Origin: Cryptobacterium curtum DSM 15641
GTDB taxonomy: Bacteria > Actinomycetota > Coriobacteriia > Coriobacteriales > Eggerthellaceae
Assembly: GCF_000023845.1 (NCBI RefSeq)
Contig: NC_013170.1
Span: 1,528,501 to 1,592,500, forward strand
Length of the DNA stretch: 64,000 nucleotides
Direction: 5' to 3'
In this document: positions 30,543-64,000 of the stretch, one piece after another
How positions within the stretch are numbered: the first letter of the stretch is position 1
Layout of the letters: each line of letters starts with the position of its first letter
Notes under the pieces: generated by a model
The model's database searches: none
Told to the model about the DNA's origin: nothing
The model's input: the letters and a program-made list of their open reading frames with translations, nothing else
Made by a program: the position numbers and the translations under genes

Positions 30543-33434
30543 CTAATCCTGCTCTTCGCGACGGCGAGCAGTCACAGCAATCGCTCCACCGACAGCAGAG
30601 AGAATAGCTAAACCAGCAGCTCCAGCAAACAGAGTTCCTTCATCAGCGGTTTTGGGAAGGATGGAAGCTGGTCCTTTGCCATTGGGGTCTGGATCAGGAT
30701 CTGGGCTCGGTGCTGGTGTTGGATCGGGCTCGGGAGCAGGATTTGGGCCCGGCTCTGGAGGAGTGGGGGTATGGGTGTTGGTGATGGTAAAGCCACTGGT
30801 GGCATCCCCCGTTACCTCTTTGGTGTATCCAGTGGGAACAGTGGGCTCATCGACCGTGTAGACAATGTTGGTGCCATTGTCCTTCTGGTCAAGGCCAGTC
30901 CACGTATATGACCAATTATTGGCAGCATTGAGAGTAACAGGTGTTCCCTTTGCTACTCCATTGGCATAGAGCACTACTTCCACAGAGGAAGGACGCACGC
31001 CATCGCGGTCATTATCATCACTCCATGCTTTAGTAACTGTCAGCGATGTTTGAGCTGGTGTATGAGTGTTTGTGACATCATAATCAGTAATGGTTGTTGA
31101 ATAATCAGCAACAGCATTCTCAGTGATCGTGTAGGCAATCTGGTGACCATCGGTTGCAGAATACTTAGCAAGACCAGCAAAGCTATAGCTCCATGCACCT
31201 GATGCATCCGGGGTGACTGCCTTTGAGTCTACTTGGGTGCCATCGGCCAGAAGGTTGATGGTGATAGAAGACGGACGCGCTCCATCACGATTGCCATCAT
31301 CATTCCAGGTCTTTGTTCCTGAGATGTCAATCTTTTCTTTATTGGTGTTAGTGATAGTGTATCCCGCTGTAGCACTGCCGCTTATAGCTGTTGTGTACTT
31401 GGTTGCATCCACACCAGTAACTGATGATTCATCAACGGTGTAGGTAATAGCAGTACCATTTTTGTACTTAGGCAGGTTAGTAAACGTATCGCTCCAGCTA
31501 TTAGCTGAGGAAAGCGTGACAGACTTGCCACTATCTACCCCATCAGCCAAAAGCTTGACAGTAACTGATGAGCCTTCTGGCCCAACCCACTTCTTGGTTA
31601 CTGGGATATTGATGGTTTCAGGGGTATGGGTGTTGGTGATGGTAAAGCCTGCGACCGCAGAACCAGTAACAGCAGCGATATACCCTGACGGAGTTGGATC
31701 CTCAGCCACGGTATAAACGATATCGTTACCAGCTGCATTCTTCTTATCGAGGCTCGCGAAAGTATCTTTCCACGAATTGCTTCCATCAAGCGTTACTGTC
31801 TTACCGGTATCGACACCATCAGCATATAAATGAACCGTCACCGAAGTCGGACGCATTCCGTCTTGATTGTCGGCATCGCTCCACGTCTTTTCAACGGAGA
31901 CATTAACAGTAGGCGGAATGGCTTTATCGACAAACGTGCGCGTGACGTCTTGAGTGGCTGTTGAGAAATCAGTATCGGCAATCGTCTGATCAGCTGCAGC
32001 AAGATATCCAGAAGGCGGAGTAGTTTCCTTAATGATATAACCATCACGCAAAAGACCGCCCAGGCTTGCTTCGCCAGACGCATTTGTTGTTACTTGGCCA
32101 ACAACCGCGCCAGAACGAGCACGAACAATATCAAAAACTGCTCCGGCAAGTGGATTTCCTGATTCGTCAGTCTTTTTGATATTAATCTTGTACTTGTAAC
32201 CTTCACCAGTGCCACCAGAGGTTGGTAGAAGGTAATAGGCCTTACTTTCTTTAGTTACGCCGTTATCAGTGAGACTTGCTTTATTTTCGAACTTTTCACC
32301 GGGAAGAGGTGTGTAGTTAATCTTGGTTTGGAAACGTACCAATAGCCCTTTAGTGGCAGGGATATTTCCCAGATTCAGCTTAAAGTTTGTTCCGTTATAA
32401 GTAATTTTTGAAGCATACTGACTTGTAACATTGGTCTGCCCAACAAGTTTATAGCTCGTGCCTTGAAGCTGCCAGGTTCCTTCGAATACTTCAAGTGTAC
32501 CAGGAATAAACGACACGCCTGGAGTTAAAAGGCTGTCATCAAGTACTGCATTCGTATACGCCTTGCCATCTTGATTAATCTTTACCTGCCAAACGCCCTT
32601 AGTGGTATCGAAAGCGTTAGCCCAGCCAGATTTAATAATAGGCACAGCTGTTTCAGTATGTACCGTGTAGTTGACATTGCCAGCCGGAACTGTTTCACCG
32701 CTTATCACCGGATTAACTGGTAAGACGCCAGAATGAGTGTGTACATCATTATCGATCTGAACATTAACCGAGAAGTCTCCAGAGATATCCGATTTACCCT
32801 CAGCGTAGTCCGTATATGTAATAATAAACTTGGTGTTGGTCGGGTCAGTCTTACCGCGCGCAATAATATTGCCTGATCCGTCTTGAATGACAAAGTCAGT
32901 TGGCGGAGCGCTTTTGAACCCGGCTGGAAGCTCTATCGTAGTTGTGTCGCCCGCATGCACGCCAAGATTTGGAAGTGCATAATGGAAATTAAGCTTGAAT
33001 GCTTGCCACGCCCCCACATTAACCGGTGTCGTGCCAGTAGCGGTAGTAACTTTGGCACTCGTAACAACATTAGGAAGCTCAACGCCACTTGATCCAGAAG
33101 CAGCACGCTTAGACACCTTGTGAGAAGTATTAAGATCTACCGGCTCGATCATCCTTGTCAAGTCAACGGTGCCCGTAGATGATGTCTGTTTGCTTCCGTT
33201 AGCTGTATCAGATTGACTCGCTTGCCACTCATCTTGTGCCATGGGAGCCTCAGCATTTACAACTGCACGGCTGTTTTCACTGTTCTCTATAGAAGTGGCA
33301 GGACTTTCCTGCGTTGCACTCGCAGAGCTTGTGCTTCCTTCGTTATCAAGGGCAACCGCCTCCAAGGCTCCCGCAGGCATACAGATACTGAATGCCAGTA
33401 CAGCACTTATGAGGCAACATAACTTTCTTTTCAC
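30543..33434 (-). CDS. CnaB-domain cell-wall adhesin 1 (LPKTA sortase anchor)
   Basis: 963 residues starting at GTG. It has a signal peptide (residues ~1-24), an adhesin-like N-terminal region, a SpaA-type domain near residue 418 with KETTPPSGY as a probable isopeptide E-box, then four CnaB repeats between about 510 and 880. A Pro/Asp-rich wall spacer (~890-920), the sorting motif LPKTA at 926-930 followed by DEG, a hydrophobic stretch and a positive tail complete it. CnaB domains often carry internal isopeptide bonds. It would be covalently attached to the cell wall by a sortase not seen in this window. The last ~360 codons are almost the same as in the adhesin at 36793-41022. Confidence 0.9.
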   Translation of the reverse strand: MKRKLCCLISAVLAFSICMPAGALEAVALDNEGSTSSASATQESPATSIENSENSRAVVNAEAPMAQDEWQASQSDTANGSKQTSSTGTVDLTRMIEPVDLNTSHKVSKRAASGSSGVELPNVVTSAKVTTATGTTPVNVGAWQAFKLNFHYALPNLGVHAGDTTTIELPAGFKSAPPTDFVIQDGSGNIIARGKTDPTNTKFIITYTDYAEGKSDISGDFSVNVQIDNDVHTHSGVLPVNPVISGETVPAGNVNYTVHTETAVPIIKSGWANAFDTTKGVWQVKINQDGKAYTNAVLDDSLLTPGVSFIPGTLEVFEGTWQLQGTSYKLVGQTNVTSQYASKITYNGTNFKLNLGNIPATKGLLVRFQTKINYTPLPGEKFENKASLTDNGVTKESKAYYLLPTSGGTGEGYKYKINIKKTDESGNPLAGAVFDIVRARSGAVVGQVTTNASGEASLGGLLRDGYIIKETTPPSGYLAAADQTIADTDFSTATQDVTRTFVDKAIPPTVNVSVEKTWSDADNQDGMRPTSVTVHLYADGVDTGKTVTLDGSNSWKDTFASLDKKNAAGNDIVYTVAEDPTPSGYIAAVTGSAVAGFTITNTHTPETINIPVTKKWVGPEGSSVTVKLLADGVDSGKSVTLSSANSWSDTFTNLPKYKNGTAITYTVDESSVTGVDATKYTTAISGSATAGYTITNTNKEKIDISGTKTWNDDGNRDGARPSSITINLLADGTQVDSKAVTPDASGAWSYSFAGLAKYSATDGHQIAYTITENAVADYSTTITDYDVTNTHTPAQTSLTVTKAWSDDNDRDGVRPSSVEVVLYANGVAKGTPVTLNAANNWSYTWTGLDQKDNGTNIVYTVDEPTVPTGYTKEVTGDATSGFTITNTHTPTPPEPGPNPAPEPDPTPAPSPDPDPDPNGKGPASILPKTADEGTLFAGAAGLAILSAVGGAIAVTARRREEQD
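30553..31640. repeat. 1.09-kb near-identical direct repeat, copy 1
   Basis: The 3' end of adhesin 1 matches the 3' end of adhesin 2 (36800-37887) at about 6.25 kb distance, in the same orientation. The match covers two CnaB domains, the beginning of a third, and the whole wall anchor. Most of it is identical; small clusters of changes lie near 31345-31390. Confidence 0.85.
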
Positions 33435-36792: not shown

Positions 36793-39700
36793 CTAGTCCT
36801 CTTCGCGACGGCGAGCAGTAACAGCAACCGCTCCCCCGACAGCAGAGAGAATAGCTAAACCAGCAGCTCCCGCAAACAGAGTTCCTTCATCAGCGGTTTT
36901 GGGAAGGATGGAAGCTGGTCCTTTGCCATTGGGGTCTGGATCAGGATCTGGGCTCGGTGCTGGTGTTGGATCGGGCTCGGGAGCAGGATTTGGGCCCGGC
37001 TCTGGAGGAGTGGGGGTATGGGTGTTGGTGATGGTAAAGCCACTGGTGGCATCCCCCGTTACCTCTTTGGTGTATCCAGTGGGAACAGTGGGCTCATCGA
37101 CCGTGTAGACAATGTTGGTGCCATTGTCCTTCTGGTCAAGGCCAGTCCACGTATATGACCAATTATTGGCAGCATTGAGAGTAACAGGTGTTCCCTTTGC
37201 TACTCCATTGGCATAGAGCACTACTTCCACAGAGGAAGGACGCACGCCATCGCGGTCATTATCGTCACTCCATGCTTTAGTAACTGTCAGCGATGTTTGA
37301 GCTGGTGTATGAGTGTTTGTGACATCATAATCAGTAATGGTTGTTGAATAATCAGCAACAGCATTCTCAGTGATCGTGTAGGCAATCTGGTGACCATCGG
37401 TTGCAGAATACTTAGCAAGACCAGCAAAGCTATAGCTCCATGCACCTGATGCATCCGGGGTGACTGCCTTTGAGTCTACTTGGATGCCATCGGCCAAAAG
37501 GTTGATGGTGATAGAAGACGGACGCGCCCCATCACGATTGCCATCATCATTCCAGGTCTTTGTTCCTGAGATGTCAATCTTTTCTTTATTGGTGTTCGTG
37601 ATAGTAAAGCCCGCAGTAGCACTACCGCTTACAGCCGTTGTGTACTTGGTTGCATCCACACCAGTAACTGATGATTCATCAACGGTGTAGGTAATAGCAG
37701 TACCATTTTTGTACTTAGGCAGGTTAGTAAACGTATCGCTCCAGCTATTAGCTGAGGAAAGCGTGACAGACTTGCCACTATCTACCCCATCAGCCAAAAG
37801 CTTGACAGTAACTGATGAGCCTTCTGGTCCAACCCACTTCTTAGTTACTGGGATATTGATGGTTTCAGGGGTATGGGTGTTGGTGATAGTACCTTCAACC
37901 TTATTACCCGTGCCCTGTATAGACGTAGTATCGGCAGTGTAGCCGGCAATCGCCCCTTCACTTAAAGTATATGTAATGGGATTACTTGCATCACCTACGT
38001 ACTTAGGCAGCCCCAGGTAGGAAACGGTATATTTCCCATTTCCTTGGTCTACCACATGTGGCGAAAAACTACTCAGGTCGATACCCTTATCGGAAGTAAG
38101 CGTAAGTGCCGCGGCAAAATCACTGGTGGTCGGGCGTATTCCGCCAACATTATTGCTATCGTCCCAAACTTTGGTAAGAACAACGTCGGTACCCGCAAAG
38201 GTCACCGCATTGGTATCAAGAGTCAACATAGAATGGTTGCCGTTAATATCATAATCGAGCGTCGTATTAAATACGGTTCGCTGATCATTATAGCTAGAGC
38301 CAACTTCGTCGTTTACCTTATAAGAAACATCAACGTATCCACCTCCATTAGCTGCTAGAGGCTGATTAGATACGAGCTGCAACATGTCTGCCTGAGAAGG
38401 GTCGCTTACTTCGGTGTAGTCACCCGGCTGCGGAGCATGGTTTGTGTTGTAAGTAACGCCCGGCTTTAGCTTAATGTACTTTACCTGGAAGTTAGACGAA
38501 GTCGTCACTGATGCAAGAGACAAAGGCAATTTGGTTGCGCCTTCAGGCGTAAACGAATTCCCCCTATCCATACTCTTTGAAAGCAATGGTACAAAAAGCG
38601 AAGTGGAATTCGTCTCAGTGTTTGCGTTGTTCCGTATGGCAATATGTACTGTAGCAGTATCGCCCTTCTGAAGCACAGCCGTAGTAGCAGAGGGATTTGC
38701 TGGATCATAAGTGTAATCAGTAACAGCACCGCTTTGTCCGTCCTTCACAGAGAAGGTTGAATGGGCTGCAATTTCAGCTGCCTGATTAATGGTAACGCCA
38801 GGACCCTCAGAAAGGGACACCATCGTTTTACCGGAGTTTACTTTATCACCGAACGTCTCTGTGTATTTCTCGGTATTCCAGTTGCTGTGATCCCACTTTT
38901 CAGCTTTGATGACAGCACCAATTTCTTTGAAATCCTTCGTGGTGAAGCCAACAAAATCATTGATGTGGTATACGCCCTTTTCCGCAAGTTTATTAGTGCT
39001 TACGGTCATGTTTAGACGCATGCTTTTAATGCTGAAATCGGGCTGATACTGTCCGCGCGTCTCATTACCAACATTGACGGGGTATTTCCATACCTTTATC
39101 TTAGTGCCATTCTTATCGAACGAGCCAACAAATTCAGGTGTGCCCAGCGTTCCACCTGTCAAGCTTAGGTTGCTATAGGAAAACCCTTCAGGCATAAAAG
39201 TATAAAGGACGGGCTCTTGCAGAGGGTTCCAATCCCAATTGCCGTCATCGATAGTGCCACTGATGTTAAAAGAATCCCCACCATTTATTTGGCTCTTACT
39301 AATGGTTCCGACACCATTAAGTACTTTCGGCGCGCTTGTCTTGCCGGTAATAACATCGCCATCTGACGGAGTGGTCCCCGTTGTATAAAGCTTTACCGTA
39401 GTTTTTACATCAGCGTCAGTGCCCTGTTTCCAAGATCCATATACGCCATTAGAAATATAACTCCATCCATAGTATTCATCGTATACATGTTTATCAGCAG
39501 GATTACGAGTATCCAAAAGGTCGCTCATAGGCCTAATGCCATCGTATCCACCTGGTATGGGCCCCAGATCAACTTTGATGGAAGTAATAGATGTATTAAT
39601 GTCAAGACCTAATGCGGTATTGGTAATAAGCGCTGAAACATTCGCTGAACCGGAGCCTGGCTTCTTTAGAATGCTTGGGTCAGCCGTGCCGCTCGTACCA

Positions 39701-41022
39701 TCGGAAGCTGTCCAATGGATAGGCCCGTAAGTCATGCCTTCCTTATACGGAATAGTAACACCGCGGATAATAGCGGTATTGCCCTTATCGATGGTCATCT
39801 CAAGAGTCTTTGGCATCGTGGGAGATGAAAGCTCATTTTTGATGAGATAAGCTCCGAGACGCGTATTGTATGTATCATACTTCTTGAGCGCCCAGTTAGG
39901 TGCATGATCAACAAGTGCATGAGTTGTAATCTTCTCGGGGGTCGCACCATCAATGATAGTAACATGCATCGTTGCGGTCTGTGTGCCAGAGGTTCTATCC
40001 GCATTGGGCGAATCGTTCCATATAGTCTTCTTAAAGTTCCGCAGTGTTACATCAAATGTGGAGCCATTAGCACGAGTACTGTCAGCAGGCACCTTGATAT
40101 GAGGTTTAAAATTCAGTCCACTTGAATAAGACCCCGGCTCGTTCCATTCGACAGTAGCAACTTTATTATCACCCTCGACCACTGTATTTACGATCGTGCC
40201 GTTCGTATGATAGAGAGCTGTTTCTTCAAGATTAACGAGCTCAAGATCTTTCGGATAAACAATTTGCACCGTTGTTTTGCTATTAGCTTCGGTAAGGGAA
40301 CTACCACTTCCTGAATTGTACGTTTCAATAGTCCCGGTGGTTCCGCCCTTAGACACAACTTCGGTGCTTTGGTTGACATAGAAACCGTAATGAGGGGTGT
40401 CAGCAGGATTAATATTGAAGGAATGCGGATCGATATTGTTGGTCGCATCGGTACTGAGGCTTACCTTAATAGCGTTAGCAATAATCTGTCCAGCATCTTC
40501 GTTTTCGTAGGCATCGTCAATACGAAAGCGGATTTCAGACTTGGTGTCCACGCGAACAAGCCCGTTTTTGGTCATATATTTCAGGTCGCCGTTTCTGCTC
40601 TCATTAGAGCCGGCAGTTGGATAACCATACGGTGAAGTCCCAGTACCCGTTGGGGTCTTTACCAGCTTGCTGAAGCTAGTACTAGTGATAGCCCCTTCAT
40701 TGAAAGTAGAACCCGGCAAGGCCGTCACGTACATGCCGTTATCAAACCAAACATTCAAATAGGTAGGAGTAAACTGCAACGAACTGGGAACGTTGTAACT
40801 CACGTTAAGTGCGTAGGTAACTCCCGCTTTAAGGGCAGGAACTTCTCCCGCGGTAAGATCAGCCACCTGAGTATGTGTGCTTGCGTCTTCAATAGTGATC
40901 TTATCGAATGCTAAGCCAGTGGTGTCCTCAGCATAGGCGGCATGCATGCTCAAGAGCATGGCGGCCATCATTGCAACAGAAACAAAAAGTAGTGTTGCCA
41001 ATCTCTTCTTCAGTGAGTCCAT
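36793..41022 (-). CDS. CnaB-domain cell-wall adhesin 2 (LPKTA sortase anchor)
   Basis: 1409 residues. A signal peptide (residues 1-~31) precedes a large N-terminal region of about 950 residues rich in Thr, Ser and Asn, unlike adhesin 1, with no domain I can name. About four CnaB-type repeats follow (~980-1320), then a Pro/Asp-rich spacer and LPKTA at 1373-1377, a hydrophobic segment and a basic tail. The last ~360 codons nearly equal those of adhesin 1; the first ~1000 are different, so the ligand-binding front end is swapped. An eight-G tract immediately precedes the start codon. Confidence 0.9.
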   Translation of the reverse strand: MDSLKKRLATLLFVSVAMMAAMLLSMHAAYAEDTTGLAFDKITIEDASTHTQVADLTAGEVPALKAGVTYALNVSYNVPSSLQFTPTYLNVWFDNGMYVTALPGSTFNEGAITSTSFSKLVKTPTGTGTSPYGYPTAGSNESRNGDLKYMTKNGLVRVDTKSEIRFRIDDAYENEDAGQIIANAIKVSLSTDATNNIDPHSFNINPADTPHYGFYVNQSTEVVSKGGTTGTIETYNSGSGSSLTEANSKTTVQIVYPKDLELVNLEETALYHTNGTIVNTVVEGDNKVATVEWNEPGSYSSGLNFKPHIKVPADSTRANGSTFDVTLRNFKKTIWNDSPNADRTSGTQTATMHVTIIDGATPEKITTHALVDHAPNWALKKYDTYNTRLGAYLIKNELSSPTMPKTLEMTIDKGNTAIIRGVTIPYKEGMTYGPIHWTASDGTSGTADPSILKKPGSGSANVSALITNTALGLDINTSITSIKVDLGPIPGGYDGIRPMSDLLDTRNPADKHVYDEYYGWSYISNGVYGSWKQGTDADVKTTVKLYTTGTTPSDGDVITGKTSAPKVLNGVGTISKSQINGGDSFNISGTIDDGNWDWNPLQEPVLYTFMPEGFSYSNLSLTGGTLGTPEFVGSFDKNGTKIKVWKYPVNVGNETRGQYQPDFSIKSMRLNMTVSTNKLAEKGVYHINDFVGFTTKDFKEIGAVIKAEKWDHSNWNTEKYTETFGDKVNSGKTMVSLSEGPGVTINQAAEIAAHSTFSVKDGQSGAVTDYTYDPANPSATTAVLQKGDTATVHIAIRNNANTETNSTSLFVPLLSKSMDRGNSFTPEGATKLPLSLASVTTSSNFQVKYIKLKPGVTYNTNHAPQPGDYTEVSDPSQADMLQLVSNQPLAANGGGYVDVSYKVNDEVGSSYNDQRTVFNTTLDYDINGNHSMLTLDTNAVTFAGTDVVLTKVWDDSNNVGGIRPTTSDFAAALTLTSDKGIDLSSFSPHVVDQGNGKYTVSYLGLPKYVGDASNPITYTLSEGAIAGYTADTTSIQGTGNKVEGTITNTHTPETINIPVTKKWVGPEGSSVTVKLLADGVDSGKSVTLSSANSWSDTFTNLPKYKNGTAITYTVDESSVTGVDATKYTTAVSGSATAGFTITNTNKEKIDISGTKTWNDDGNRDGARPSSITINLLADGIQVDSKAVTPDASGAWSYSFAGLAKYSATDGHQIAYTITENAVADYSTTITDYDVTNTHTPAQTSLTVTKAWSDDNDRDGVRPSSVEVVLYANGVAKGTPVTLNAANNWSYTWTGLDQKDNGTNIVYTVDEPTVPTGYTKEVTGDATSGFTITNTHTPTPPEPGPNPAPEPDPTPAPSPDPDPDPNGKGPASILPKTADEGTLFAGAAGLAILSAVGGAVAVTARRREED
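36800..37887. repeat. 1.09-kb near-identical direct repeat, copy 2
   Basis: The counterpart of 30553-31640. The match ends within the linker before the first shared CnaB domain. Differences cluster near 37590-37640. Confidence 0.85.
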
Positions 41023-53983: not shown

Positions 53984-56062
53984 TTATTCATCCGCGTCCA
54001 GCGGCATCTCGAACGAGAGTTCGTTGGCGTCAATCTCGCAAATCTCGAAAACGCTTTTGAGCAGGTCAATCTTCGCAGCAGTGCTCGAAGCCGTACGCGC
54101 ATATACCCCCCTGGCAATCTTCGAATGTCCCTGCGCCTCAGTGCTACGGAACGCGCTCGCCGGATAGCTTGTCCCGTCAACAAGCGAGTGAATCTTGGCT
54201 GGCTCGAGTTCGTGAAGCAGCTGGAGGACCTTAGCCTCCATATCGTTCCACTGCGTTGCGACATAGCGGACGCCCATGAAACTGAACGCCGCAATTCTTC
54301 TGCCAGTAAATTCGACGCCTGAATCGAGCTCTGCAACCTCTGGCAAAGCTTTCTTCGGCTCATAGGAAGTCTCGGGGTATGGCCACGTCTCAAGGAACTG
54401 CTCCTCGAGCATCTCTTCACGCTTCTTCATTTGCGGCTCGCCCCAGGTCTCCTGCTGGGCAATCCATTGATTCATGCGGAAGCCGCTCGCCCTAAAGCCG
54501 TCTTTCATATCACGCTTTTGCTGGAACGGGCGGTTGCTGTAATCGGAGTTGTAGGCGGTAAGCGTGAGATTAGCCATCTTGTGGCACCATTCCTCGTGCA
54601 CTCGCTCCCAGTCGTCGCCGAGGGCACGCTTCCACTCCGCATTCAGCGTTTGCGGCATCACATGCTCAACGGAGAAGTTGCCCTCTTCAAGGCCGCTCAC
54701 CACCTCGACCCGCTCGTCGCTCGTCCCGTTCTCGAGCCGATCGTACAGGTAGTATTTGCGGTTCTGGACGCGGTAGAAATCGCGTGTGTCCAGCGCATAG
54801 AGGAACTCGCCATCGTCTGGGAGCCTGCTCTGGCCGCCTTTGTGAGTCAGAACGTATTTGACGACTTTAGAGTATTCCGCACCATCCGCTACACCTCTCA
54901 AGGCATCGCCATGCAGTGTCTCGAACACCTTGTTGAGGGCGTTTGCCGGAAGGCCACTTGCCCACCTTCTGAAGAGGTATGTGTCCAGCGTCCAAAGGAC
55001 CGTGGCGACCGCATCATCGTCAATATCGCCCTGTGCGCGGTATTCGAGGAGGTTGAGAAGATATGGCTGTGTAACGCTCGCATCGAATACATGAATCGCC
55101 TTTAAGGCAGAGTCAATGTCCTTCACGCCGGTGTCGTGACGTATGCATGCGCGGTAATGCTTCGAGTATGCGAGCAGCTCCTTCAAAAGCGGCTCGGTGT
55201 CTATCTCCAATGCGCCGCCGTTGGGATCCTTGAAATACTTGTGCGCATACGTGCGGAACGCTGGGTACACCTTCTTGATTGCGGGAGTCTTCGCCTCCCG
55301 GGCCGCAAGGAAGAAGCGAATGTAGTCGCTCACCCTGTAGTCCGTGTTGTGCTCAACCGCATTCCAATAGTCCTCGTAGTAGATCTCCTGGCGTTCCTGA
55401 TTGAGGTTCATGAGCACGAAGTTGCGAATCTTGTCCGCCTCGGAGAGGTCAAGCCCGGTAGAGTTGAGGCTCTCAAAGATGAGCTGCGCGTCATCTGGCG
55501 GGTCGAGAGTAATGTCGATTATGCAAAGCGATTTTATCGACTCGTAGAGTTCGTCGACGCTGATGTCCATGCGGGCAATGCGGTCCAGGAAGTACAGGAA
55601 GTTCTGCGTCACGTTCGAGCCCTGTATGTAGTCGTCGGGCTTCTCGTCGAGAATCGCCCTGAACGCCTCGCTGTCGCTCTTGACGAGCTTGAGACGCAGT
55701 TTTTGATCCTGCTTGTGCTTCTTGTCGATGAGGTAGTAGTCGTCTATGTCCTCGGCAAGGTCTTCGTCATTCGAGGTGACGATCCCCGCCTTCACCTGCG
55801 TCCTGATAGCTGCCAGCAGGAGGAAGACCGTAGTTATGCGTTGCTGGCCATCGATAACGACACGCTCGCCGCGGGGTGTCTGGGAGACGATGCTGCCGAA
55901 GAAGTGCTCCGTTCTTCCGGTCTTTGCCACTTCAACGAGGTCATCGAAGAGGCGTCCGCACTGCTCGGGCTTCCAATCGTAGTTTCGCTGGTACACGGGT
56001 ATCACAAACCGCGTGAGCTTCCCTTCGATGAGGTCTGTTAGGTATTGCTTGTGACCGTCCAT
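53984..56062 (-). CDS. DUF262/HNH (GmrSD-type) nuclease
   Basis: 692 residues. The N-terminal DUF262 domain carries IPVYQRNYDW (residues ~18-27) and the DGQQR signature (VIDGQQRITT near residue 71), and FNTP-like substrate binding is known for this family. The C-terminal region has the DUF1524 HNH core FSVEHVMPQTLN ... ANLTLTAYNSDYSNRPFQQKR (near 480-530). GmrSD-type enzymes cleave modified phage DNA using NTP. It is in the same operon as CBASS, starting 25 bases downstream of the ribbon-helix-helix gene. Confidence 0.9.
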   Translation of the reverse strand: MDGHKQYLTDLIEGKLTRFVIPVYQRNYDWKPEQCGRLFDDLVEVAKTGRTEHFFGSIVSQTPRGERVVIDGQQRITTVFLLLAAIRTQVKAGIVTSNDEDLAEDIDDYYLIDKKHKQDQKLRLKLVKSDSEAFRAILDEKPDDYIQGSNVTQNFLYFLDRIARMDISVDELYESIKSLCIIDITLDPPDDAQLIFESLNSTGLDLSEADKIRNFVLMNLNQERQEIYYEDYWNAVEHNTDYRVSDYIRFFLAAREAKTPAIKKVYPAFRTYAHKYFKDPNGGALEIDTEPLLKELLAYSKHYRACIRHDTGVKDIDSALKAIHVFDASVTQPYLLNLLEYRAQGDIDDDAVATVLWTLDTYLFRRWASGLPANALNKVFETLHGDALRGVADGAEYSKVVKYVLTHKGGQSRLPDDGEFLYALDTRDFYRVQNRKYYLYDRLENGTSDERVEVVSGLEEGNFSVEHVMPQTLNAEWKRALGDDWERVHEEWCHKMANLTLTAYNSDYSNRPFQQKRDMKDGFRASGFRMNQWIAQQETWGEPQMKKREEMLEEQFLETWPYPETSYEPKKALPEVAELDSGVEFTGRRIAAFSFMGVRYVATQWNDMEAKVLQLLHELEPAKIHSLVDGTSYPASAFRSTEAQGHSKIARGVYARTASSTAAKIDLLKSVFEICEIDANELSFEMPLDADE

Positions 56063-56419: not shown

Positions 56420-57266
56420 TCAGCCCTCCCAGACGGCTTTCATGACGGACTTTGCGGTTTTGCAGGCATCCTCGAGGGCTATGCCCGCAGCGTAGGGGTT
56501 CATGCGGACGTATTTCGCCCAGAGGCCCTGCATCACCTCGCTCTCCGACACCTCGGACAGCGTCTTGTCCCAAGAGTCAATCACCTCAGCGCTGCCGCGC
56601 CTCTCGCTTGTCGCGACGAGCGCATCGCGGAGCGTGGCAGGATCACATTCGGCGTGCTTGAGCTGCCACAGCACGTGGATGTCGTAGAAGTCGCGGGGCC
56701 GCGTGTTGCCCGTGCCGCGCGAGACCACCGTCTCCAGCTTCTCGGCGAGCACGGTCTCGAGCGGGTAGCCCATCAGGCGGATGCTGCGGTCATCGAACAG
56801 GAGCGGGTACTCGTATTCGACCGCGTCGGGCGTGATCCTGTCCCCAGTGGTGACGTCGACCGTCAGCGGCACCTCCATGGGCGCGTACCGGGCGAGCAGG
56901 TGCACGCGGATGCCCGGGTAGTCGTCGGCCTCGCGGATGTCCTCCGTGCGGACGAACTCGATCTCCCAGTCGTCGTCGGCCTGCGCGGCGGCTATCTCCC
57001 TGAACGCCGCCTCGGCCGACTCGTGGGTCAGCTCGAAGCCCCGCACCGTCGTGTCGAGGTCCATCGTGGTCCGCATCGCGACGCCCACGAGCGACGAGAT
57101 GAGCTCCGCCCTTCACGACCACGCGCTCGCGCCACGGCGTCTTAGACAGCCGTTCCAGCAGGCGCTCGAACAGGTAGTTCTGCATCATCATCTGAGCGGG
57201 GATGCCCGCCTCCCTGGCACGGGCGTTCACCCTCGCCTTGAGCTGCATCGCGTTTCTCATCCTCAT
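56420..57266 (-). pseudogene. AbiEii-type nucleotidyltransferase toxin, frameshifted
   Basis: The N-terminal part (residues 1-~55) reads in one frame from ATG 57266 to RERVVVKGG. The rest continues in another frame as ELISSLVGVAMRTTMDLDTTVRGF. In AbiEii proteins this is continuous (KGG-x-L-x-S..MRTTMD-D). A one-base change near 57112 breaks the frame, giving a C-terminal open frame 56420-57088 of 222 residues. The MRTTMDLD motif and the later SRDFYDIHVL-type (RPRDFYDIHVL) are present. The ATG overlaps the stop of abiEi (ATGA). It could be a real mutation, a programmed shift or a sequencing error. GC is high. Confidence 0.75.
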
Positions 57267-57847
57267 AGCAGCACCCTCACATAGTTCTGGATCTTCCCCT
57301 CCACGCCGAGCGCCCGGGCGTAGCCGAGCAGCTTCAGGATGTTCCTGTCCGCCCTGCGCACGTAGGCCCTCATCGCCGGGTTCACCACCTGCTCGTCCAC
57401 GACGCGCTGCCCCCGGACCATGTCGCACAGCGTGCGCTCGAGGTCGTAGGCGCGCACGGCGTTGCCGTGCATCGTCCTCACCTCCGCCACGCCGAGGCCG
57501 AGCACCTCGTCCGCGCACGAGCGGCAGATTATCCCCGCAGCCTTGGCCCTCGCCTTGTTGTAGTTGCGCGAGAACGTCATGGTCAGCTGGAAGGGCGCCC
57601 GGTCGGTCGCCCCGTGCAGGTAGAGGGCGGTCCCGTCGGAGAAGACGCCCTTCGCGAAGCGGTGCTGGGCGATGAGGTAGGGGTCCTCCCACGTCTCCGG
57701 CAGCGCGTAGAGCCCGCGGTCGACCTGCACGAGCTCGCCTGCCTCGACCGCCTCGGCGAGGCAGCGCCTGGGGATTCCCGCCGCGGTGGCCTGCGCCGAG
57801 CTGACGTAGCCGTTCTGCACCAATGCGATGTCGGCAACCGTCTCCAT
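57263..57847 (-). CDS. AbiEi-type antitoxin
   Basis: About 194 residues. The N-terminal winged helix-turn-helix (NGYVSSAQATAAGIPRRCLAEAVEAGELVQVDRGLYAL) is typical of AbiEi antitoxins, which repress their own promoter and neutralise AbiEii; a C-terminal antitoxin domain follows. The ATG at 57847 has AGGAGGGG upstream. It overlaps the toxin by 4 bases (ATGA). High GC suggests acquisition from another high-GC coriobacterium. Confidence 0.85.
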   Translation of the reverse strand: METVADIALVQNGYVSSAQATAAGIPRRCLAEAVEAGELVQVDRGLYALPETWEDPYLIAQHRFAKGVFSDGTALYLHGATDRAPFQLTMTFSRNYNKARAKAAGIICRSCADEVLGLGVAEVRTMHGNAVRAYDLERTLCDMVRGQRVVDEQVVNPAMRAYVRRADRNILKLLGYARALGVEGKIQNYVRVLL

Positions 57848-57860
57848 GGCCCCTCCTCCC

Positions 57861-57874
57861 TGAATGTACATTCA
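57861..57874. promoter_or_regulatory. Candidate AbiEi operator
   Basis: TGAATGTACATTCA is a perfect 14-bp palindrome, 13 bases before the antitoxin start. Two AATATGAG direct repeats (about 57880-57896 on the minus strand) lie just upstream. AbiEi proteins bind inverted repeats here. Confidence 0.55.
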
Positions 57875-62146: not shown

Positions 62147-64000
62147 TTATTCGTATACCCGATGTTCAACGGCAATCTCGTCAATTGTTTCCTGGTGAAG
62201 CGCACAGCCCAAACCGACAGCCTGCTCAGGGGGATTAATCTCCAGCATGCCCCGCTCAAGCGTAAGCGGCGGTGTCGTTATCTCGGTATCAAAATATCGA
62301 GAACTTGAAGAAATATCGCCTGGTACCAACATGCCAGGCAGCGTCGCAAAGGCCGCATGCAATCGCTTACTGATGCCGGTATCGTACATACCGCCCATCC
62401 AAACAGCAACACCACGTTCGCGTGCCCAATAGTAAAAATCGAGGGCTGGTTGTACACCTCCAAACTTGCCAATTTTCATGGCAACGCACCGCAAATCTGG
62501 ATGATTGGTTACTATGCGACGCAGTTCATGAGCATCTGTCCAGCTTTCATCTAAACAGATAGGACAAGCCAATTCGCCTTGTAAGCGACTTAGACGTTCG
62601 AACAGACCTCGCGGTCCAACCGCTGGAGCCTTATGCGGGTCAAGCGGTTCTTCGATGCAGGCAATATTTAGACGTGACAGTTCTATAAGCGTTTCCTTAT
62701 CAGCCTCGGTAAAACTCTGGTTTGCGTCAAGCAGGAGTGTCAGTCCTGGATATCTCTCACGCACTTTGCGTACTATCCGCAGATCATGGCCTGGCTGAAT
62801 TTTTAATTTAACGCGCGTATACCCCGTCTCAACAGCACGAGAAACACTATCGAGCACAAGCCGCGTGCTCGCAATGCCAACCACCGCGCCGCCTGCAACC
62901 CACCCCGGTGGCACAGGATGTGAAGATGACGCTTCTGTTGTTTCCAGTCGTCCATCAATAAGCTCGCGTACACTTTTTCCGACGATCGCGCCGTAAAGAT
63001 CCCACAGCGCCGGCTCCACCGCAGCACAAGCCAGCGGATGAGATCTCATACTCTCAGTGGCATTACTGTCATTGGCAGTCTCAGCGACATCGGTAGCATT
63101 ACTCTTTTTAACAGCATGGGCATTGCTAGTGTCAGGTTTATCATCAGCGTCATTGCTGGTATCCACCCCGTATTTATCCTGAAAAGCTAGATACTTACTC
63201 ACTTGGAGAGGATGAATAAACGTCTTCCCAACAATACACGGCACGATGCGCTTTTCTATAAACTGCAAGTCGTCTTCAATGGTCTCTGGCCCGTACCACG
63301 GAGTAGAAAAAGCCACATCCTCGGCAATTCCGGTATGACCGTGCGCATCACACACGGCAACAATAAGCGATTCTCGTTCCTTAAGCTGTGTTTTTGCAGT
63401 CCGCGTATCGACCATTGGCTGCTTGATACGCCAAACATCAAGACGAGTAACAGCCAGCCGTTCGCGATAGATAGTGCGCAGCGCAGCACGATCGACCTTG
63501 CCAATACCGGTGCAGGGAAATTCAGGCACAACAATAATGTCTCGTGGCTGATAGAGGCGCGACAGGCGAACAGAAAGCTCTCGCCGAATGTCATCCGCAA
63601 AGGCAATCTCGTTAAAGCCGTCTTGTTGGGATATGTAGGCGGCTTCAACAAACGCAACCGGGCGCCTCCCCCACACCTCATCTTCTGCCCCAAATACAAA
63701 TGCGTCAGTTACCCCCTTGTAGGCAAGTAACTTTGCACGAATTTCTTCCGGGTAAATGTTTTCACCGCCTGAAACAAACATGTCGCCAGTACGCTCTGCA
63801 ACCTGTAAGCGCTCCTCAACGAGGCGAGCTCGGTCGCCCGTTAACAGGCATCCATCACGAGTAAAGGTCGCCTGCGCGTTCACATATTCCGAAATAACGC
63901 CTGGTCCGCTGACTGCCAACTGACCAAAGCCTGACTCGTCAGCATCGACAATGACTGCTTCATATCCAGGCAACAGGTGCAGTGTTCCATCGAAGTTGGC
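62147..64000 (-). CDS. Fused MenE-MenC (o-succinylbenzoate-CoA ligase and o-succinylbenzoate synthase), 5' end cut by the window
   Basis: The open frame covers at least 608 residues and continues past base 64000. The first ~180 visible residues are the C-terminal part of an adenylate-forming ligase (LLTGDRARLVEE, GRTGDMFVSGGENIYPEEI-like, FPCTGIGKVDRAAL), as in MenE. The rest is an enolase-superfamily MenC: KLKIQPG, LLLDANQSF, CIEEPLD, CLDES and AMKIGKFGG carry the K-x-K, D-E-D and K. A Ser/Asn/Asp-rich low-complexity insert of ~50 residues near 275-320 interrupts MenC's capping domain. The two steps are consecutive in menaquinone synthesis. Confidence 0.88.
   Translation of the reverse strand, partial: ANFDGTLHLLPGYEAVIVDADESGFGQLAVSGPGVISEYVNAQATFTRDGCLLTGDRARLVEERLQVAERTGDMFVSGGENIYPEEIRAKLLAYKGVTDAFVFGAEDEVWGRRPVAFVEAAYISQQDGFNEIAFADDIRRELSVRLSRLYQPRDIIVVPEFPCTGIGKVDRAALRTIYRERLAVTRLDVWRIKQPMVDTRTAKTQLKERESLIVAVCDAHGHTGIAEDVAFSTPWYGPETIEDDLQFIEKRIVPCIVGKTFIHPLQVSKYLAFQDKYGVDTSNDADDKPDTSNAHAVKKSNATDVAETANDSNATESMRSHPLACAAVEPALWDLYGAIVGKSVRELIDGRLETTEASSSHPVPPGWVAGGAVVGIASTRLVLDSVSRAVETGYTRVKLKIQPGHDLRIVRKVRERYPGLTLLLDANQSFTEADKETLIELSRLNIACIEEPLDPHKAPAVGPRGLFERLSRLQGELACPICLDESWTDAHELRRIVTNHPDLRCVAMKIGKFGGVQPALDFYYWARERGVAVWMGGMYDTGISKRLHAAFATLPGMLVPGDISSSSRYFDTEITTPPLTLERGMLEINPPEQAVGLGCALHQETIDEIAVEHRVYE

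Follow-up and report, generated by a model that had tools for sequence, protein, structure and literature searches.

A menE-menC fusion gene in Cryptobacterium curtum and the apparently separate fates of its two halves in related genomes

Introduction

Does one gene of Cryptobacterium curtum encode two consecutive enzymes of menaquinone synthesis, and does fusing such enzymes tie their fates? The first question is raised by an open frame at the end of the window, the stretch of 64,000 nucleotides analysed here; the second is testable in the lineages that carry the gene. C. curtum belongs to the Eggerthellaceae in the class Coriobacteriia, and its genome consists of one contig of 1,617,804 bp, on which the window covers positions 1528501-1592500. 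The single open frame lies on the minus strand at positions 62147-64000, comprises 617 codons and runs into the window end.

Results

The fused gene and its two halves

Beyond the window end the same frame continues on the genome contig, with 1033 codons from stop to stop. From its GTG start the full menE-menC gene has 1027 codons (L005:4148-7231, equivalent to window positions 62147-65230), and reading it in full we found no stop and no frameshift. The original prediction that the ligase MenE and the synthase MenC are one polypeptide, in this order, is thus borne out: the 5' part in the neighbouring sequence completes the ligase, no interruption lies upstream of position 64000, and the MenE-type half is N-terminal, the MenC-type half C-terminal. 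In the window the gene has the following parts:

62147-64000, minus strand: 3' part of the fused menE-menC gene, which extends beyond the window
63467-64000, minus strand: C-terminal portion of the MenE-type half with motifs A7-A10 (Pfam AMP-binding_C, motif coordinates)
63488-63508, minus strand: A10 motif GIGKVDR, which contains the ligase's catalytic lysine (motif check)
63446-63466, minus strand: joint without linker, where the last MenE helix gives way to the first MenC strand (anchors, predicted secondary structure)
62147-63445, minus strand: MenC-type half, o-succinylbenzoate synthase of the NSAR/OSBS type, enolase superfamily (TIGR01928, PDB relatives, fold)
63041-63187, minus strand: stretch holding the C. 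curtum-specific Ser/Asn/Asp-rich insert (anchor spacing, pLDDT)
62798-62815, minus strand: MenC RVKLKI with the K-x-K motif, which presumably holds a catalytic lysine (motif check)
62714-62737, minus strand: MenC LLLDANQS, its Asp taken to be a metal ligand (motif check)
62642-62662, minus strand: MenC ACIEEPL, its Glu taken to be a metal ligand (motif check)
62543-62557, minus strand: MenC CLDES, its Asp taken to be a metal ligand (motif check)
62456-62485, minus strand: MenC VAMKIGKFGG, its Lys presumably the second catalytic lysine (motif check)

The ATP loop and the A5 motif of the ligase half lie outside the window, past its end. Within the 617 residues, Pfam places AMP-binding_C at residues 89-168 and MR_MLE_C at residues 384-603. 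The TIGR01928 (menC) cut-off of 200.65 bits is passed by the window part (234.4 bits) as well as by the full-length protein (232.4 bits). With TIGR01923 (menE), the C. curtum MenE half scores 232.7 bits, below the cut-off of 330.15, and the inserts described below may lower this score; the best stretch of genome G052, probably Eggerthella lenta, reaches 264.1 bits. Curated cut-offs would presumably name the fused protein an o-succinylbenzoate (OSB) synthase and miss its ligase half. All 21 motif residues that we checked are present in C. curtum, 13 of 13 in MenE (A3, A5, A7, A8, A10) and 8 of 8 in MenC, where the positions read KKDNEDEK (K-x-K, three acidic metal ligands, second catalytic Lys). 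The full set of 21 is intact in 75 of the 90 fused proteins.

Compared with the PDB, a MenE-half profile made from eleven sequences found the 2-succinylbenzoate-CoA ligases 5x8f (270 bits), 5buq (267) and 3ipl (260), with the next entry at 196 bits. A ligase tree did not place the MenE half firmly with MenE or with other ligases, its branches being long and its forks weak; three ligases of C. curtum were placed on the fork's MenE side, and the row used for the E. lenta ligase probably represents a wrong frame (its end branch measures 9.3). We take the first half to be MenE-type, since its PDB relatives are MenE enzymes and its motif positions are standard. For the MenC half, the best PDB matches were 1wue, 1wuf and 2zc8 (N-acylamino acid racemase), which are of the NSAR/OSBS type.

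Gene neighbourhood

The fused gene is the last in a row menF-menD-menH-menB-[menE/menC] on one strand, and its GTG start lies 26 bases past the menB stop. The upstream menB, menH-type, menD and menF are each a separate gene; the menH-type gene scores 143.6 bits, below its cut-off of 208.55. Downstream lies a gene of the basic amino acid antiporter type. A UbiE/menG-type gene of C. curtum scores 210.9 bits. The menA match is weak (69.7 bits vs a cut-off of 102.15), which counts against the reading as a menaquinone enzyme; the menA cut-off was passed in none of 138 family genomes vs 6 of 14 control genomes. A scan of promoter-like (6 vs 9.0 expected) and terminator-like (13 vs 11.7) signals was uninformative.

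The description of C. curtum gives chemotaxonomic data as absent (PMC3035227), and for this reason the species is not known to make menaquinone. E. lenta has been reported to contain MK-6 and MMK-6 (PMC3035228). In G052 the fusion is intact, with one MenC-profile match and no match to the futalosine family.

Elsewhere in the window, the minus-strand ORFs 30546-33380 and 36796-41022 share a near-identical segment (DISGTKTWNDDGNRDG...) in which one 24-base repeat recurs, at 30697 and at 36944, and look like related surface proteins. The adjoining minus-strand ORFs 56420-57088 and 57263-57871 resemble, as we would assume, an AbiEii/AbiEi-type toxin-antitoxin pair, and the 692-residue ORF at 53984-56062 presumably a DUF262/GmrSD-type protein.

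Distribution and origin of the fusion

We searched 138 family genomes (taken to be Eggerthellaceae), 92 of them near-complete. The MenC half was matched in 89 of the 138 and in 64 of the near-complete ones; it was unmatched in the other 28 near-complete genomes, which counts against the menaquinone reading. MenE and MenC share one frame in 86 of the 88 family genomes with a clear MenC match, a count that leaves out G064, whose sole match is weak, and includes copies that run into contig ends (e.g. G022, G044, G128) or are split (G035, G097). Fusion is therefore ordinary in the family and not peculiar to C. curtum. In one of the two exceptions, G021, the copy begins at a contig end and a second contig carries the MenC start in a 678-codon frame; the other, G026, carries its MenC-type sequence as a separate gene of 381 codons. 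The two profiles behind these counts, and behind those on genomes outside the family below, exclude six rows with damaged motifs.

Two observations on individual genomes may be added. In G026 (L236, L072) a separate menE (377 bits, above the curated cut-off) stands after menB; with its separate MenC-type gene and only background menD, this genome has a different men gene set within the same family. The split genes of G097 (L108) and G035 (L109) extend over two overlapping frames, through either an assembly error or a broken gene.

The fusion also occurs in G763, from another family of the same order, and in G602, G627 and G618, from a family in another order of the class (G618 is cut by a contig end); the remaining class families gave, among the matches listed, only weaker and shorter frames. 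Ten frames of 628-812 residues around MenC-type matches from other Actinomycetota, among the matches listed and leaving out several weaker enolase-superfamily matches in long frames, were considered as fusions outside the class; none has a MenE match, and they are merely long open frames. In a wider scan of genome contigs covering at least 80 loci among the matches listed, five were fused, all apparently from the same class, 36 had MenC in a separate frame and 39 had no MenC frame above 60 bits, the only frames counted. In 32 of the 36 loci with separate MenC, among the matches listed, menE is adjacent, mostly in Bacilli and in the order menE-menC, with gaps measured between open frames and not between start and stop codons. 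Since menE and menC are thus mostly adjacent yet separate in Bacilli, the fusion probably originated from the joining of these operon neighbours.

Low-complexity inserts

The predicted Ser/Asn/Asp-rich MenC insert of about 50 residues holds up well. In C. curtum, 49 residues lie between the two anchors (window 63041-63187), 39% of them S, N or D; in 87 other fused proteins with both anchors this span has a median of 8 residues and never exceeds 21. The S+N+D background in the 34 window ORFs is 16.4%, and the fused ORF ranks third-richest among them for a 49-residue stretch. A second insert, in the ligase half past the window, has 62 residues, whereas its span is at most 21 residues long (median 5) in nine other fused proteins with both anchors. 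In a model of the 617 residues (mean pLDDT 85.5), confident helices at 264-277 and 322-340 flank a stretch in which pLDDT falls below 50 over most of residues 283-310, within the insert. The MenC insert is thus a predicted disordered loop, long only in C. curtum, and we read both inserts as lineage-specific disordered loops. Only the insert is peculiar to C. curtum, whereas the fused state is family-wide. Tandem repeats were considered as a source of the MenC insert and set aside, the sole repeat in it being a weak one (15 bases, 1.9 copies).

Low-complexity additions are found in several men enzymes of C. curtum. Besides the MenE and MenC inserts, menD (L005:9324-11885, minus strand) has a long acidic low-complexity N-terminus, with the menD model starting at residue 289 of 853, and the menH-type protein (L005:8166-9320, minus strand) contains a repetitive Glu/Lys-rich stretch.

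Relatives that lost the pathway

Among the 86 fusion-bearing family genomes, menD was found above the cut-off in 71 and in sub-cut-off pieces in four (G007, G055, G060, G066). Only background menD (E 2.7e-18 to 3.5e-24) was found in G011, G032, G034, G035, G041, G044, G048, G049, G073, G074 and G137; the menD model gives such background matches in 14 of 14 control genomes, too. With the exception of G137, whose menB scores 411.5 bits, these genomes had no menB match at E <= 0.001 either. Completeness of the menD-lacking genomes is 81-98%, and a single absence of menD or menB could be a gap, but hardly all ten together.

The ligase positions are damaged in all ten of these orphan genes, with 2 to 8 of 13 lost (in G035, three of the five lost are gaps of the split frame). 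MenC is complete at all eight positions in five of the ten (G011, G032, G044, G073, G074); one is changed in each of G034, G035, G048 and G049, and four in G041. G137 shows the reverse, with 13 of 13 ligase positions intact and MenC damaged at four of eight. Where menD is present, both halves are intact in 72 of 75 genomes, and in the other three (G022, G097, G128) the missing positions are due to contig ends or to a split frame. On a FastTree of 87 fused proteins, a quick method with a long-branch warning from which the incomplete G618, G022 and G097 were excluded, the orphan state needed four changes, each of which branches with strong support make unavoidable; two of the four are single long branches, with G041 and G044 among the long branches. 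G137 was grouped as menD-bearing in this analysis although it lacks menD, which leaves the four changes unaffected. MenE motifs thus seem to have been lost each time the pathway partners went, in about four independent events. As the halves lose motifs independently, the two activities appear separable, which speaks against strict mutual dependence.

Is the orphan gene merely decaying? For G073/G074, dN/dS is 0.08 in the ligase half (95% range 0.06-0.11) and 0.08 in MenC (0.05-0.11); the control pair G002/G006 gave 0.08 and 0.07, and four control pairs span 0.07-0.20 (ligase) and 0.07-0.13 (MenC). The values are 0.11 and 0.05 for G034/G035 (available frame only), 0.21 and 0.16 for G032/G034, and relaxed to 0.62 and 0.40 for G048/G049. 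The dN ratio between the halves did not clearly separate five orphan pairs (median 1.33, 1.01-3.39) from 31 control pairs (1.07, 0.57-3.76). Because the ligase half of G073/G074 keeps a dN/dS of 0.08 with a broken ATP loop, selection in at least one genus suggests reuse, and in other orphan genomes the gene may be decaying. For the genomes that lost menF, menD, menH and menB, it is conceivable, and offered here tentatively, that the gene was reused, the ligase without ATP loop as a non-catalytic partner or scaffold still under strong selection and MenC, its active site retained, for another reaction, for example N-succinylamino acid racemisation, with a ligase-only lineage living on imported OSB elsewhere.

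Alternatively, the MenC half, in C. curtum as well, could act in the first place as an N-succinylamino acid racemase, with OSB synthesis as a side activity. Its nearest solved relatives would fit, as would the eight MenC residues kept in five of ten genomes in which, without menD and menB, no OSB precursor is expected. However, in C. curtum the half is the sole MenC match and stands behind menF, menD, menH and menB, and in G137, which kept menB and lost menD, MenC is the damaged half; we regard this alternative as quite unlikely and retain OSB synthase for C. curtum.

Two other clues concerning the orphan genes were set aside. The futalosine pathway as a replacement was indicated in only one of 15 genomes, where PF02621 barely passed its cut-off (G074, 27.9 vs 26 bits); G048 gave a match below threshold. 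A transporter-like neighbour of the gene in G011 and G073 is uninformative, as it also lies near the fused gene in the menD-bearing G077-G079. As separate observations, G137 (contig C37; L056, L235, L240) with its menB, intact ligase half, lost menD and damaged MenC is a candidate user of imported OSB, and G004 has menD (368 bits, with neighbours) while menB and the MenC half are unmatched, either an opposite partial loss or an assembly gap.

The joint between the halves

The spacing between the catalytic Lys of MenE and a conserved Thr of MenC is 34 residues for 86 of 90 fused proteins and 33, 33, 35 and 39 for the others. The joint anchors are 7 residues apart in C. curtum, and 7 is both the median and the maximum in the other 89. 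A model of the whole protein of a relative, Raoultibacter timonensis (972 residues, mean pLDDT 88.1, pTM 0.83; only 5 of 36 alignment rows span the joint), has a gap of only two residues where the last ligase helix ends and the long first synthase strand begins. Its ligase half best fits the B. subtilis MenE entries 5x8f and 5x8g, which we take to represent the thioester-forming state.

The near-constant joint bears on the idea that the long frame yields two separate enzymes, by an internal start or by proteolysis, so that the fusion would be functionally meaningless. Separate adjoining genes are indeed usual outside the class, but a processing linker would be free to vary in length, and of the 88 family genomes whose MenC match is clear, 86 keep one frame. 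We consider this highly improbable and hold to a bifunctional protein.

Fusion of consecutive steps had also been thought to suggest channelling, which fusion alone does not establish. In its strong form, a rigid linkerless joint would point the MenC exit at the MenE site, so that OSB stays on the protein; the constant joint in 90 proteins, and in the Raoultibacter model the high pTM and two-residue gap, agree with such a machine. Against it, the domain order follows the menE-menC gene order and not the order of reactions, and the halves lose motifs independently of each other. Moreover, the C-terminal domain of MenE-class enzymes rotates between the two steps, and with MenC tied to this domain a fixed tunnel would be hard to keep. 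A kinetic model of Lactococcus lactis predicts DHNA output to be independent of MenC or MenE levels (PMC12421875), which also makes a flux benefit of fusion doubtful. We judge such a machine unlikely; the predicted rigid joint is compatible with channelling and no proof of it.

Discussion

The MenE-MenC fusion of C. curtum is real, intact and conserved, and it most likely encodes a bifunctional OSB synthase-ligase. We consider it probable that the gene as a whole is a menaquinone enzyme joined from operon neighbours, giving a 1:1 supply of both activities with no need of channelling. What the analysis shows directly is the intact frame with its conserved motif residues, the gene row, the distribution, the joint without a linker, and that motifs go where the pathway is lost; from this we infer the two activities, their coupling and the mode of origin. 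The C-terminal MenC half would dehydrate SHCHC to OSB, and the N-terminal MenE half would convert OSB, ATP and CoA to OSB-CoA for MenB. The in-frame joining of menE and menC would have happened before the family diverged from two or more other families of its class, or have spread among them. Its benefit would most likely be that both consecutive enzymes are supplied 1:1 on a single chain; OSB may be channelled directly, although the reading does not require it, and the MenC insert would be a lineage-specific disordered surface loop without catalytic role.

The unexpected part comes from the relatives, in which the fused halves apparently lost function separately and one was apparently reused. 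About four independent pathway losses with the same outcome, together with one opposite case, would form a natural experiment on fused enzymes. The opposite case, G137, offers a specific candidate for an organism that lives on imported OSB, an exchange that PMC4746308 only hypothesises. The fusion alters how the vitamin K2 pathway is read in a family of oral and gut bacteria, which probably includes E. lenta.

Our searches of open-access full texts listed no paper describing a MenE-MenC fusion, and the fusion may well be listed in domain-architecture databases. The main text of PMC4746308, which names Eggerthella and Gordonibacter, contains neither 'fused' nor 'menC'. MenY-MenI fusions are predicted in it (PMC4746308); they are likewise bacterial fusions of menaquinone enzymes, but concern other steps. 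In plants and algae, PHYLLO has been described as a fusion of MenF, MenD, MenC and MenH (PMC6189191). Like the C. curtum protein, it unites enzymes of this pathway, among them MenC, on a single chain; it differs in its other members, with MenE outside PHYLLO and acting in the peroxisome (PMC6189191). A PHYLLO-type MenF-MenD-MenC-MenH chain is absent in C. curtum, where menF, menD and the menH-type gene are separate.

With the NSAR/OSBS subfamily, the MenC half shares fold, catalytic residues and nearest solved relatives; however, the solved chains 1wue, 1wuf and 2zc8 have 369-393 residues and no ligase, whereas here the half is joined to a CoA ligase. The closest likeness in gene order is found in Bacilli, with the same enzymes and the same menE-menC order; the B. 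subtilis operon reads menFDHBEC. In S. aureus, too, menE and menC are separate (PMC7154746). The Bacilli thus make two polypeptides from these neighbours, whereas C. curtum makes one, without a linker.
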